From Anaeromyxobacter dehalogenans 2CP-1 (lineage in GTDB: Bacteria; Myxococcota; Myxococcia; Myxococcales; Anaeromyxobacteraceae), in contig NC_011891.1 in the NCBI RefSeq assembly GCF_000022145.1, positions 3,268,501-3,332,500 on the forward strand: 64,000 nucleotides of DNA. The letters run 5' to 3'. Below are positions 51,500 to 56,508 of the stretch, in pieces. The notes under the pieces were generated by a model, which saw only the letters and a program-made list of their open reading frames with translations, ran no database searches and was not told the DNA's origin. Within the stretch, counting starts at the first letter, position 1; every line of letters starts with the position of its first letter. Both the position numbers and the translations under genes were made by a program.

Positions 51500-51721
51500 T
51501 CACCCCCACAGCTTCTCGTCGCGGTGCTTCAGCACGTGCCCGCAGACGGCACAGACGCGGACCGCGCCGCCCACCCCGGCCGAACGGCCGTCGGCGTACG
51601 TGTGATCGCAGTCCTCGAGCAGCCGGGCCTCGTCGGCGCGGAGCGCGGCCAGCGCCGCCTCGTGCTTCGCGATCTCGACCCGCAGCTCGGTACGGCGGGC
51701 CAGCCTTTCGGACTGTGTCAC
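51500..51721 (-). CDS. Zinc-ribbon microprotein
   Basis: A 73-residue protein starting at GTG 51721 directly after GGGAGGGCGC. The N-terminal half is a charged helix (about residues 3-36, IAKHEAALAALRADEARLLE). The C-terminal part has C-x-H and C-x-x-C (CDHTY, VCAVCGH), enough for one zinc site. It resembles small DksA- or transcript-associated zinc proteins only in outline; no family is assigned. Divergent from the first multihaem cytochrome gene across 357 bp. Confidence 0.65.
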   Translation of the reverse strand: MTQSERLARRTELRVEIAKHEAALAALRADEARLLEDCDHTYADGRSAGVGGAVRVCAVCGHVLKHRDEKLWG

Positions 51722-51858
51722 GCGCGCCCTCCCCGGTTCCGCTCCTGGTGTCCGGCGAGTGTATCGGGGAACTCCGCGCCGCGCGCGCTGGCGACCTGCA
51801 ACGCTGCGGGGACAGGTCCCGACGCTTCGCGCAACGTTTGCGTCAGTCGAGCGACCGC

Positions 51859-51872
51859 CGCGTCCCTTGCGC
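51859..51872. repeat. Shared 14-mer upstream of cytochrome gene 1
   Basis: CGCGTCCCTTGCGC, 207 bp before the ATG of the first cytochrome gene. The identical 14-mer occurs 91 bp before the second cytochrome gene. Confidence 0.45.
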
Positions 51873-51961
51873 GTGGGACACGACGGGCTCGCACCTTGAC
51901 CCACCCGTTCGCGTCAGGGGTTTCCGCGCACTTAGCTGTCGGTACGGATTTCGGCGCGAAC

Positions 51962-51977
51962 CGGCACGTGCGTTGCT
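51962..51977 (+). promoter_or_regulatory. Sigma-54 (-24/-12) promoter of the first multihaem cytochrome gene
   Basis: CGGCACGTGCGTTGCT matches the consensus TGGCACG-N4-TTGCW at all but the first position, with the invariant GG (51963-51964) and GC (51975-51976) spaced by 10 bp. The predicted start leaves a leader of about 90 nt before the ATG at 52079. A sigma-54 activator would be required; none is adjacent. Confidence 0.6.
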
Positions 51978-52078
51978 CGACCGGCACCCCCGAACGTGGC
52001 GCCATGGCCGCCGCCCGCCCACGGTCCGGTGCTCCAGCGCCGGGTCCTGGTCCCCGGGCCGCCGCCCGGAGACGAACC

Positions 52079-53446
52079 ATGGCCTCGACCCACCGTGCGG
52101 CGCTCGCCGCGCTCGCCCTCCTCACCGCCACCGCCGCCTGCGACCAGGCTCGCCCGACGCTCGGCGAGGCCGACGCCGGCGCGGAGGGCGACTGCACCTC
52201 CTGCCACGGCGACGCGACCCGCACCGAGGCGAGCGCGCTGCTCCAGGCGGCTCCGCCGCGCGACGCCCACGGCAGCGCCAGCGGGCCGGCGGTCGGCGCG
52301 CACCAGGCCCACCTGCACGCGACCGCGGTCTCCGGGCCGATCGCCTGCGCCGAGTGCCACGCCGTGCCCACGCAGCGGCTCCACTCGAACGGCCAGGTGG
52401 ACCTCGCCTTCGGCGCGCTCGCCCGGGCCGGCGGCGCGTCGCCGGCGTTCGCGGGCGGCACCTGCTCCGGCGTCTACTGCCACGGCGCGACGCTCTCCGG
52501 CGGGAGCCTCACCGCGCCGGTCTGGGGCAGCGCCGGGCCGCTGGACTGCGCGAGCTGCCACGGCGCGCCTCCGCCGTCGCACGCCGCCGGCGCCACCGCC
52601 TGCGCCACCTGCCACCCCGGCACCGTCGACGCCGACGGCACGCTGAACCTCGCCGGCGGACTGCACCTGAACGGCGTGGTGGACGTGAACGGCGCGCACC
52701 CCGAGGGCTGGTCGGATCCGTCGCAGCACGGCCGCGCCGCGAAGCGCGATCTCTCGAGCTGCACCGCCTGCCACGGCGCCGACTACGGCGGCGGGACCTC
52801 CGGCGTGTCCTGCAACGCCTGCCACGGCGGCACCGCCTGGCAGTCGAACTGCACCTTCTGCCACGGCACCAAGGTCGCGGCATACGCCGCCGCCGACCTG
52901 CCGAAGGCCGCGCCGCCGCTCGGCACGCAGGGCGAGACGGCCGTCACCGACCGCGCCGTCGGTGCGCACCAGAAGCACCTCCTCGCCACCCTGTCCTCGC
53001 CGCTCGCGTGCGCCGAGTGCCACGCCGTCCCCGCCGACCTCGGCCACCTCGACGGCGCCGCGCAGGTGACGTTCGGCGTCGCCGCCCGCCGGAACGGGGC
53101 CGCGCCGGCGTGGAACGGGACCACCTGCGCGTCCACCTACTGCCACGGCTCCACCGCGGGCGCCGCCGCACCGGCGCCGGCCTGGACCTCGACGGCCGGC
53201 ACCACCTGCGCCTCCTGCCACCTGCCGCAGAGCGGGAGCGGAACGTCCGCTTACTCCGGGCGACACTACCTGCACGTCTCCAGCCGCGGGATCTCCTGCG
53301 CGACGTGCCACGGGTCCGGGTACACTGCGAGCGCCGTCGTGCCGGCCACCCACGTGGACGGGACGCGGCAATTGCAGCCCATCGTCGGCTGGAACGCGGC
53401 CTCCCGGAGCTGTGCGCCGGGGTGCCACGGCGGCGAGACCTGGTAG
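52079..53446 (+). CDS. Multihaem c-type cytochrome lipoprotein (CxxxxCH/CxxCH family)
   Basis: A 455-residue outer-surface or periplasmic lipoprotein. The signal peptide ends in LTATAAC (lipidated Cys at about residue 21). I count ten canonical CxxCH haem-binding motifs, two CxxxxCH (CSGVYCH, CASTYCH) and one CxxxCH near the end (CAPGCH), so up to 13 haems. The alternating CxxxxCH...CxxCH repeats define a family known from Geobacter, involved in extracellular electron transfer. Repeats of about 100-130 residues recur, with VGAHQAHL/VGAHQKHL His-rich blocks that may give distal haem ligands. Shares architecture with the next cytochrome gene. Confidence 0.9.
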   Translation: MASTHRAALAALALLTATAACDQARPTLGEADAGAEGDCTSCHGDATRTEASALLQAAPPRDAHGSASGPAVGAHQAHLHATAVSGPIACAECHAVPTQRLHSNGQVDLAFGALARAGGASPAFAGGTCSGVYCHGATLSGGSLTAPVWGSAGPLDCASCHGAPPPSHAAGATACATCHPGTVDADGTLNLAGGLHLNGVVDVNGAHPEGWSDPSQHGRAAKRDLSSCTACHGADYGGGTSGVSCNACHGGTAWQSNCTFCHGTKVAAYAAADLPKAAPPLGTQGETAVTDRAVGAHQKHLLATLSSPLACAECHAVPADLGHLDGAAQVTFGVAARRNGAAPAWNGTTCASTYCHGSTAGAAAPAPAWTSTAGTTCASCHLPQSGSGTSAYSGRHYLHVSSRGISCATCHGSGYTASAVVPATHVDGTRQLQPIVGWNAASRSCAPGCHGGETW

Positions 53447-53524: not shown

Positions 53525-53538
53525 ACGCGTCCCTTGCG
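53525..53538. repeat. Shared 14-mer upstream of cytochrome gene 2
   Basis: The same CGCGTCCCTTGCGC as at 51859-51872, 91 bp before the ATG at 53629. With the preceding bases it also reads as TGACGCG-N4-TTGC at 53522-53536, a poor sigma-54 match because the -24 GG is GA. Confidence 0.45.
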
Positions 53539-53628
53539 CACGGTCAAGCCGCCGGCCCGCCGACGAGGGCATTCTGGCGCCGCGCGCCCGCCCATCCGGG
53601 CGTGGCCACGGACCGAGGACCCTCCCGA

Positions 53629-55596
53629 ATGCGCTCCGCTCGACTCACCCCGCTCGTCCTGACCCTCGCACTGCTCGCCGCCTGCTCGGCCCGCAAGGTG
53701 GAGGAGTCGGCCGAGGCGGGCACCAGCTGCACGCGCTGCCACGGCGGCGTGGACAACCTGACCGGCGCGCCGCCGCGCGACGCCCACGGCAGCCTGACGG
53801 GCCCGAAGGTCGGTGCGCACACCGCCCACCTCGGCGCCGGCGTCGCCTGCGAGACCTGCCACAAGGTGCCGTCGTCGGTGGACGACCCGGACCACATCGG
53901 CCCCGACACCATCAAGGTCCGGTTCGGCCAGGCCGCGAAGCTGAACGGCGCGGCCCCGACGTACGCCGCCGGCACCGGGACGCTCGGCGGCACCTGCTCG
54001 AGCACGTACTGCCACGGCAGCACGCTGTTCGCGGGCGGCACCACGCCGAACCCGTCCTGGAACCAGCCGAAGCCCACCGCGGCGGAGCGCTGCCAGGCGT
54101 GCCACGGCAACCCGCCGCCCAGCCACAGCGCGCTCGCCACCAACTGCTTCCAGTGCCACTCCGACTCGGTGGACGCGAACCAGGAGATCAAGCCCGGCGG
54201 CAAGCACGTGGACGGCCACGTGGACATCGTGGCCCTGACCGCCTGCGCGGGCTGCCACGGCGACCCGAGCCGCACGCAGGACTCGCCGCTCGTCCGCGCC
54301 GCGCCGCCGGTGGACACGCAGGGCAACGTCAGCGGCGCCCGCGTCGGCGCGCACCTCGCGCACCTGCGCGACGGCCCGCTCGCCAAGGCGTTCGCGTGCA
54401 GCCAGTGCCACGTGGTCCCGACCGACTCCGCGCACGCGTCGAACGGCGCGCCGGTGGTCACCTTCGGCCCGCTCGCGTCGCTGAACGCGACCCCGAGCTA
54501 CGCGAACGGCACCTGCAGCGGCGTCTACTGCCACGGCGGCGGCACCACGCCCATCGGCGGCGGCGGCCTGAACGTCGCGCCGACCTGGACGCAGGGGACC
54601 GCCGGCGCGACCTGCGGCAGCTGCCACGCGCTCGTGCCGCCCTCGCCGCACCCGTCGATCGATCGCAACGGCGCGCCGCTCGGCTCGCTGCCGCAGTGCT
54701 CGCAGTGCCACCCCGGCACCGTGAACCCGGACGGCTCGATGTTCGTGGCGAACGGCCTGCACGTGAACGGCGTGGTGGACCAGAACGTCCACCCGGCCGG
54801 CTGGCTCGCGCCGGCGGGCACGCAGCAGCCCCACGGCCTGGCCGCGAACTTCCACGACCCGGCGTATCCGCGCGGCCTCGGCGACTGCCGGACCTGCCAC
54901 GGCGCCGACCTGAACGGTGGCCCCGGCGCCGGCGCGTCCTGCAACGCCTGCCACGCCGCGAACGGCCAGCAGGCGTGGCAGACGAGCTGCACCTTCTGCC
55001 ACGGGGAGCCGAACCGGGCGCAGCTCGCGGCGGCGCCGCCGGTGGACAGCCAGGGTCACGTGGCGCCGTCGGAGCGCGGCGTCGGCGCGCACCAGACGCA
55101 CCTGTTCGGCAAGCAGCCCACCGGCGCGATCAGCAACGGCGTCGCCTGCGGCGCGTGCCACGACGGGCAGCCCTACGCCGACATCGCGCACGTGAACGGC
55201 ACGGTGGCGGTGGCGCTCAAGACCCCGGGCGGCGCCGCGGCCGGCACGTTCGACGCCGGCGCCGGGACCTGCGCGTCCACCTACTGCCACGGCGGGTTCC
55301 GCGGCGGGAAGGCCGCCACCCCGGCATGGACCGCCACCTCGGTGGACTGCGGCAGCTGCCACGCGTCGCAGACCGGCACCGACCTCAGCGACGCGCACGC
55401 GACGCACGTCGGCACGTTCAAGCTCTCGTGCGGCGTCTGCCACTCCGCCGCGTACGCGCCCGGCGCCACGCCGCCCACCGCGGACGAGGTGCTGCACGTG
55501 AACGGCGTGGTCGACGTGGCCGCGCCGGTCAACTATGACCGGGCCACGCACGGCTGCACCGTCGCCTGCCACGGTCCGGATCGCGCCTGGTACTGA
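53629..55596 (+). CDS. Multihaem c-type cytochrome lipoprotein, larger paralogue
   Basis: A 655-residue lipoprotein with lipobox LLAAC (Cys about residue 19). I count 14 CxxCH motifs, three CxxxxCH (CSSTYCH, CSGVYCH, CASTYCH) and one terminal CxxxCH (CTVACH), up to 18 haem sites. Domain repeats follow the pattern of its neighbour: APPVDTQGN, VGAHLAHL, CxxCH..VP, GTCSGVYCHG. It would form a multihaem wire at the outer membrane or cell surface for electron transfer to metals or between cells, in line with metal-respiring Anaeromyxobacter. It may form a module with the first cytochrome. A strong intrinsic terminator follows. Confidence 0.9.
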   Translation: MRSARLTPLVLTLALLAACSARKVEESAEAGTSCTRCHGGVDNLTGAPPRDAHGSLTGPKVGAHTAHLGAGVACETCHKVPSSVDDPDHIGPDTIKVRFGQAAKLNGAAPTYAAGTGTLGGTCSSTYCHGSTLFAGGTTPNPSWNQPKPTAAERCQACHGNPPPSHSALATNCFQCHSDSVDANQEIKPGGKHVDGHVDIVALTACAGCHGDPSRTQDSPLVRAAPPVDTQGNVSGARVGAHLAHLRDGPLAKAFACSQCHVVPTDSAHASNGAPVVTFGPLASLNATPSYANGTCSGVYCHGGGTTPIGGGGLNVAPTWTQGTAGATCGSCHALVPPSPHPSIDRNGAPLGSLPQCSQCHPGTVNPDGSMFVANGLHVNGVVDQNVHPAGWLAPAGTQQPHGLAANFHDPAYPRGLGDCRTCHGADLNGGPGAGASCNACHAANGQQAWQTSCTFCHGEPNRAQLAAAPPVDSQGHVAPSERGVGAHQTHLFGKQPTGAISNGVACGACHDGQPYADIAHVNGTVAVALKTPGGAAAGTFDAGAGTCASTYCHGGFRGGKAATPAWTATSVDCGSCHASQTGTDLSDAHATHVGTFKLSCGVCHSAAYAPGATPPTADEVLHVNGVVDVAAPVNYDRATHGCTVACHGPDRAWY

Positions 55597-55746: not shown

Positions 55747-56508
55747 ATGCGCCGCGAGCACAGCGATCAGCGGATCGCGCTCTTCATCGACTTCGAGAAC
55801 CTCGTCACCCGCACCGGCCTCTCGGCCGAGACGTTCGACCTGCAGCCCGCGCTCGACACCCTGCTCGAGAAGGGGAAGGTCGTGTACCGCCGGGCGTACG
55901 CCGACTGGACGCGCTTCTCCGCCGCCACCCCGCGCCTCCACGAGAAGGGCGTCGAGCTGGTGGACGTGCCGCCCTCGACGCGCGCCGGGAAGAACGGCGC
56001 CGACATGCGCCTCGTCATCGACGCGCTCGAGCTCGCCTACCTGCGCGAGCACATCGACACGTTCGTGATCGCGTCCGGCGACTCCGACTTCTGCCCCCTC
56101 GCCTACAAGCTGCGCGAGAACGACCGCACCGTGATCGGGATGGCGGTGCGGGAGGCGACCAGCCCCCTGTTCGTGAAGGCGTGCGACGAGTTCATCTACC
56201 TGCGCCCGGGCAGCCGCCGCCGCGCGGAGGGCGGCGGCAAGGAGAAGGCCGAGCGGGCCAAGGAGAAGGTCGCCGCGGTCGTCCCCGAGGTCGCGCGCGA
56301 GGCCACCGCCGCCATCCTGGGGCGGGCCGCCGGGCCGGTGAACCCGTCCGCCATCAAGGCCGCCATCGTGCGCCGCCAGCCCGACTTCGACGAGCGCGAG
56401 CACGGGTTCTCGTCCTTCAACCGGATGCTGGAGGCCATGGAGACCGAGGGCCTGCTCCGCCGCGAGCAGGGCGCCAAGGGGCAGTGGTACGTGGTCCCCG
56501 CGGCCTAG
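55747..56508 (+). CDS. NYN-domain protein with C-terminal LOTUS/OST-HTH domain
   Basis: A 253-residue cytosolic protein. The NYN (PIN-like) ribonuclease domain (about 5-150) has conserved acidic residues in RIALFIDFENLV, KNGADMRLVIDALEL and FVIASGDSDFCPL. After a charged linker, residues about 185-252 form an OST-HTH/LOTUS-type winged helix (GPVNPSAIKAAIVRRQPDFD, then GFSSFNRMLEAMETEGLL) that binds RNA. It is the LabA/DUF88-like type and probably acts in RNA turnover or regulation. Sits alone between the cytochrome terminator and the SDR gene. Confidence 0.85.
   Translation: MRREHSDQRIALFIDFENLVTRTGLSAETFDLQPALDTLLEKGKVVYRRAYADWTRFSAATPRLHEKGVELVDVPPSTRAGKNGADMRLVIDALELAYLREHIDTFVIASGDSDFCPLAYKLRENDRTVIGMAVREATSPLFVKACDEFIYLRPGSRRRAEGGGKEKAERAKEKVAAVVPEVAREATAAILGRAAGPVNPSAIKAAIVRRQPDFDEREHGFSSFNRMLEAMETEGLLRREQGAKGQWYVVPAA

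Follow-up and report, generated by a model that had tools for sequence, protein, structure and literature searches.

A predicted NmpR-type sigma-54 promoter upstream of a multihaem cytochrome operon, with boxes in common with haem synthesis and cytochrome-c assembly genes

Metal-respiring bacteria produce cytochromes that carry dozens of haems. To our knowledge, it is poorly understood how these organisms match haem supply and cytochrome assembly to the production of apoprotein. A pair of multihaem cytochrome genes in a 64-kb stretch of DNA, hereafter the window, raises this question directly: what switches the pair on, and does the same switch reach the genes that supply and attach haem?

A sigma-54 core upstream of two multihaem cytochrome genes

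The first cytochrome gene (52079..53446, + strand) encodes a c-type cytochrome of 455 aa, a putative lipoprotein as judged by eye, with matches to Cytochrome_C7 and GSu_C4xC__C2xCH and with ten CxxCH, two CxxxxCH and one CxxxCH haem motifs. The second (53629..55596, + strand; ORF and domain search) encodes another putative lipoprotein, also judged by eye, of 655 aa with 14 CxxCH, and we infer that both genes form one operon. The intergenic gap before the first gene (51722-52078, 357 bp) is bordered on its other side by a divergent small gene of 73 aa (51500..51721, - strand; from the ORF list, with an inferred start codon), which is kept in two close relatives, contains a CxxC noticed by eye and gave no match in a Pfam search. 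An NYN-domain protein with an OST-HTH/LOTUS domain is encoded next to the cytochromes, at window positions 55747-56508.

The original prediction placed a near-consensus sigma-54 site at 51962-51977, about 103 bp upstream of the cytochrome start and in the only long gap nearby. Its sequence and coordinates are exact. On the + strand, the core reads CGGCACG-N4-TTGCT, with the leading T as its single mismatch to TGGCACG-N4-TTGCW, and the distance from the -24 GG to the -12 GC is exactly 10 bases, the correct spacing; the ATG at 52079 lies 102 bases beyond the last base of the core, and the gap is the longest seen in the neighbourhood. From the position of the -12 element, transcription is predicted to start at 51988 (+ strand). 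The missing leading T is no weakness, because related promoters here mostly read [G/C/A]GGCAC.

Taken alone, this core is evidence only moderately above chance. It is the sole match with one mismatch to the sigma-54 consensus in the window, where matches with up to two mismatches number five versus 7.1 expected from shuffles, and GGCAC-N5-TTGCW occurs 27 times in the 5.03-Mb genome versus seven times for the reversed pattern. We accept the core as real because conservation decides the matter. A query of 901 bases around the site identified the syntenic locus in seven relatives from the genus, and in six of them a core with varying spacer letters stands upstream of the related cytochrome gene (CGGCACGTcgGTTGCT, CGGCACGTccGTTGCT, GGGCACGTGCATTGCT, GGGCACGCTCGTTGCT, GGGCACAACGGTTGCT and GGGCATACCCGTTGCT). 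Over the aligned parts, the products of these genes are 87–90 % identical to the first cytochrome of the window in two genomes (G001 and G002) and 44–50 % identical in four others (G003, G005, G006 and G007). In G006 an extra stretch is found between the homologue of the small divergent gene and the promoter, with core and cytochrome gene still together. The seventh locus (G008, L008) has no such core before its cytochrome gene, which lies directly behind another gene and whose product is nearer to the second cytochrome of the window.

This coreless relative in G008, the seven reversed-pattern matches in the genome and the unremarkable count of two-mismatch sites in the window would fit a chance match, with the operon transcribed from a constitutive promoter or from one of sigma-70 type. 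Such an explanation appears very improbable to us, however, since six relatives retain the core despite changes in its spacer and, as described below, have it paired with boxes at a repeated spacing. We conclude that 51962-51977 is very probably a sigma-54 promoter. The genome has one Sigma54_DBD match, corresponding to rpoN, and 39 strong matches to the AAA+ domain of enhancer-binding activators; together with the conservation and the upstream boxes, these support the earlier proposal that the cytochrome gene would be controlled by an activator of this type.

Paired boxes upstream of the core and elsewhere in the family

The original prediction overlooked the activator boxes upstream of the core and also their presence at genes for haem synthesis and cytochrome-c assembly. 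The boxes are best described by reference to NmpR of Myxococcus xanthus. This regulator is the output of a globin-kinase system that is linked to oxygen and whose first kinase, NmpU, is the globin sensor; NmpR drives hemN and the cbb3 oxidase (PMC11841059). The same text gives an NmpR consensus of GCGCA-N5-TGCGC, obtained by gel shift and reporters, and 14–15 bp between boxes in five of the seven NmpR-bound promoters; in addition, GCA-N5-TGC is perfect in all the NmpR-bound sites that it presents, an observation that stands outside the five search rules (PMC11841059).

A box scan of the window promoter identified S1 (GCGCAACGTTTGCGT; 51829..51843, + strand), which reads GCGCA-ACGTT-TGCGT with one mismatch to this consensus, and S2 (CCGCGTCCCTTGCGC; 51858..51872, + strand), which reads CCGCG-TCCCT-TGCGC with two. 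They are separated by a gap of 14 bp and lie 104–133 bp upstream of the core. Two boxes, each with at most two mismatches, occur upstream of all seven cores (the window included), with a start-to-start distance of 29–30 bp in six of the seven promoters and of 41 bp in G007. At least one box has no more than one mismatch in six of these promoters; both copies have two mismatches in G006, and one copy is perfect in G003. In sequence and spacing, S1 and S2 resemble the boxes bound by NmpR. GCA-N5-TGC is perfect in S1, but S2 reads GCG-N5-TGC, and the second box also deviates in the other promoters: six of the seven (the window included) have GCG, and in G007 the box fails on the other side. This argues against NmpR, and we therefore call the promoter NmpR-type and not a proven member of the NmpR regulon.

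In DNA this rich in GC, a single box is no rarity: of the 240-bp stretches of the window, 6 % contain one with at most one mismatch and 50 % contain one with at most two, the figures for shuffled upstream DNA being 2.7 % and 31 %. We thus placed weight on the repeated spacing and on a genome-wide test. An isolated weak box with two mismatches (ACGCG-TCCCT-TGCGC; 53525..53539, + strand; box scan) precedes the second cytochrome gene, and no convincing sigma-54 core was found after it. A different candidate for the activator site, the inverted repeat GTCCC-N8-GGGAC at 51862-51879, is kept only in the two closest relatives, is absent from the other four core-bearing promoters and, even with up to three mismatches allowed, occurs only once in the window; it was dropped, and the GCGCA-type box was therefore taken instead.

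For the genome-wide test, the inner palindrome of S1, CGCAA-N3-TTGCG, was derived from the window promoter and then tested elsewhere. The 5.03-Mb genome has it in four places, three of which (S1 included) are 56–132 bp upstream of a sigma-54 core; these three belong to the window operon, to hemA and to a PPIase gene that has two cytochrome genes behind it, with 26 and 16 CxxCH. Nine genomes of the genus contain 44 palindromes versus 15 of the reversed pattern, counting each palindrome once, and a core scoring at least 13.6 occurs within 260 bp of 18 of the 43 distinct places, with about one expected among 43 from a background of eight such cores in 204,000 strand-bases. The threshold of 13.6 was chosen after the scores had been seen; the counts of exact-pattern pairs are independent of it. 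In 24 genomes of the family, the palindrome and a core 43–103 bp apart form 17 pairs versus none for the reversed pattern, and a looser pattern (CGCA-N5-TGCG plus a GGYAY core) forms 46 versus none; the window promoter is in neither count, its S1 being too far from the core for these patterns. Outside the family, in 91 other genomes sampled from the order, the looser pattern gives 70 pairs versus 14 reversed and is above the control only in part. The counts for the looser pattern include a few cases of two boxes for one core.

Classification by downstream gene, using tblastn similarity to proteins of the window genome (G000; Pfam for its own members, and motifs for the five-CxxCH cytochrome), was achieved for 43 of the 46 looser pairs, leaving three unclassified. 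They precede hemA (10 pairs), a hemA-linked kinase gene without hemA (1), a fused c/b cytochrome (12), the PPIase (9), ResB (8), a multihaem cytochrome with five CxxCH (1) and an NmpR-like regulator (2). Since many of the 46 are orthologues of one another, the gene classes provide the independent count, which is four in G000 alone besides the window operon. The fused c/b cytochrome has seven CxxCH and, in G000, also a b561-type domain; presumably it resembles Geobacter CbcL. The ResB gene of G000 is followed by a cytochrome-c assembly gene of CcsA type. In a database-wide scan, five of the matches listed (at least 119 stretches) fall on these genes (L120, L133, L152, L157 and L168), all of them from the family of the window, and the remaining listed ones look like chance.

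No core scoring at least 13.6 accompanies 25 of the 43 palindromes of the genus, none of which was counted as support. Among these coreless places, one precedes a pyruvate:ferredoxin oxidoreductase gene (G000:C1:255855), one in G007 precedes the gene for the small subunit of a NiFe-hydrogenase, and one in G008 precedes a gene for an MFS transporter, with a similar gene in G003. A palindrome lies about 60 bp before hemE, without a strong core, in L082/L399 (G005:C49; PF01208 in L399) and in L095 (G003:C96). In L061, L083 and L087 (G003, G005 and G007), another is flanked by moeA on one side and a Crp/Fnr-like gene on the other, at a distance of about 2.5 kb from the globin kinase gene, and no strong sigma-54 core was found with it in these three genomes. 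Separately, a promoter-like stretch starting with CGCAAASTTTGCG is conserved in 12 genomes of one genus (f4 genus g23).

Candidate activators

By domains and gene order, G000 has an nmp locus (L321) with the arrangement CBS-NmpU-NmpT-NmpS and NmpR opposite, that is, genes for a CBS protein, a globin kinase, a response regulator and a hybrid kinase, facing that of an NtrC-type regulator. The orthology of NmpR rests on this gene order and on the text of PMC11841059, in which the nmp locus of Fw109-5 is described with the same arrangement. Boxes are present at the G000 nmp locus, but no core there scores above 13.3, which counts against an NmpR-type switch. A box and core pair directly precedes nmpR in G035, G057 and G059 (family f7), although the core ends only 6–12 bases ahead of the called start, so the message would have to be leaderless or the true start would have to lie further on. 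In G031 a pair lies upstream of nmpU at a distance of about 390 bp, and a small gene occupies the space between them. No protoglobin was found in G019 or G110.

On this evidence, NmpR itself is the activator that we somewhat favour for the window promoter, with a confidence lowered by the presence of a paralogue beside ResB-CcsA. This paralogue (G000:C1:970872-972227; 62 % identical to NmpR) is encoded convergently to ResB-CcsA, its gene adjoins a boxed promoter, and its recognition-helix stretch, SVRKIQYRLKEY, is identical to that of NmpR; besides, pairs precede genes for NmpR-like regulators 53–54 % identical to NmpR in G014 and G019. Nevertheless, among the matches listed, those of at least 73 % are spread over more of the tested genomes than second matches at 52–62 %, and the paralogue has no known link to a globin sensor. 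We consider it improbable that the paralogue, and not NmpR, activates the window promoter. Another NtrC-type activator might serve these promoters, for instance the one encoded in the operon of the fused c/b cytochrome (G000:C1:139089-140468). It does lie behind a boxed promoter, but its HTH differs from that of NmpR (in a comparison covering 33 of about 39 activators), and an activator of this sort is the least plausible of those considered, with hardly any weight given to it.

The region behind hemA offers a third candidate. It encodes a histidine kinase, with one CxxCH (c-haem) motif in its presumed periplasmic sensor and ahead of its HAMP domain, and an NtrC-type regulator, a two-component pair that could bind the same boxes and regulate itself. 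The hemA-linked kinase is found in 29 of 117 genomes of the order, including 22 of the 24 from the family. At 13 of the 29 loci, the DNA upstream of hemA or of the kinase gene combines a core of 13.3 or higher with a box of at most one mismatch (17 with up to two mismatches, the 12 misses including pieces cut by contig ends). Additionally, in G020 the pair of box and core is directly before the kinase gene, with no hemA, and the HTH of the hemA-linked regulator has YRLK in common with NmpR. Against this, a close relative of NmpR (73–100 % identity) exists in all 13 kinase-bearing genomes tested and also in three of the eight kinase-free genomes tested (G024, G029 and G030), the other five having nothing above about 51 % to NmpR among the matches listed. 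Pairs precede nmpR in G035 and G059, both outside the 29 genomes with the kinase, and the box motif resembles the experimentally determined site of NmpR. In addition, the receiver of the hemA-linked regulator is out of frame in G000. We thus regard direct activation by the hemA-linked pair as unlikely, if less so than activation by the paralogue. The simplest account is that this pair is itself a target of NmpR or of its paralogue, and several regulators may share the box.

The gene for the hemA-linked regulator in G000 (L069:10655-12039; G000:C1:2225655-2227039) loses its frame near the end of the receiver: it differs in length by one base from its counterparts in two close relatives, due to mutation or sequencing error. 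A stop/start overlap at this point could allow the AAA+ part to be translated from a new start. In G006 and G020 (L078 and L111), the divergent neighbour of hemA or of the kinase gene encodes a multihaem cytochrome, and the box lies between the two; in G005 and G003 (L057 and L098), a different gene is divergent there and has its own sigma-54-like core. Sigma-54-like cores also occur directly before two genes for sigma factors of the sigma-70 family, L030 (G000:C1:1342119) and L034 (G000:C1:2228046), and one of these two genes is convergent with the hemA operon.

A proposed low-oxygen regulon and its relation to known systems

We propose, as the probable reading, that an NmpR-type sigma-54 switch drives the window operon together with hemA, ResB-CcsA, the PPIase gene and the c/b cytochrome at low oxygen. 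Starting from the computed site, its conservation, the boxes and their spacing, the shared genes and the presence of rpoN and of an nmp locus, we infer the operon structure, the binding and activation and the signal as follows. At low oxygen, a phosphorylated NmpR-type activator of the NtrC family would bind S1 and S2, the input probably being the Nmp phosphorelay with its oxygen-sensing globin kinase NmpU. The activator would contact sigma-54 RNA polymerase at 51962-51977 and open it by ATP hydrolysis, and transcription would begin near 51988, yielding the two multihaem lipoproteins. The same boxes would raise hemA for haem synthesis, the ResB-CcsA pair for cytochrome-c assembly, the PPIase gene with the 26- and 16-CxxCH cytochromes, and the c/b fusion cytochrome, so that haem supply, assembly and apoprotein would rise together. 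The bacteria may in this way turn on the whole cytochrome supply line jointly as oxygen runs out. The original prediction had named electron-acceptor conditions as the signal, which the NmpR-like boxes sharpen towards oxygen, the signal itself still being conjectural.

A more elaborate, two-tier circuit is conceivable, though we hold it to be doubtful. Activated by the loss of oxygen, NmpR would turn on hemA, assembly and the cytochromes along with a second sensor. This sensor has a c-haem site of its own, which could acquire its haem only in cells with functioning haem attachment; its activator, sharing the boxes, would then match cytochrome expression to the real capacity for holo-cytochromes.

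Searching titles and abstract openings of open-licence papers, we found no description of this regulon. Among sigma-54 systems for multihaem cytochromes, BccR of Geobacter sulfurreducens is an activator that, with RpoN, controls cbcBA, encoding an inner-membrane multihaem cytochrome, and thus one pathway with a dedicated activator; we know of no box that it has in common with haem synthesis. The RpoN regulon of this metal-respiring species was reportedly described by Leang et al. in 2009, and we are aware of no NmpR box or globin-kinase input in it.

The closest likeness is to the NmpRSTU regulon of M. xanthus as presented in PMC11841059, with which the promoters described here share the box GCGCA-N5-TGCGC, the pairing at 14–15 bp and a downstream sigma-54 core, as well as a sensor locus with its genes ordered as in Fw109-5 and a link to haem (hemN in M. 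xanthus) and respiration. The targets of Nmp in Anaeromyxobacter are stated there as unknown (PMC11841059), and the present analysis offers an answer to that question of the NmpR authors in the form of a concrete, testable candidate regulon for which the boxes, the promoters and three possible activators are specified. Whereas the M. xanthus targets given in the same text are the nmp genes, pilR, a CBS gene and a USP gene, the cbb3 oxidase and hemN/hemerythrin (PMC11841059), those predicted here are hemA, ResB-CcsA, the PPIase and multihaem cytochromes.
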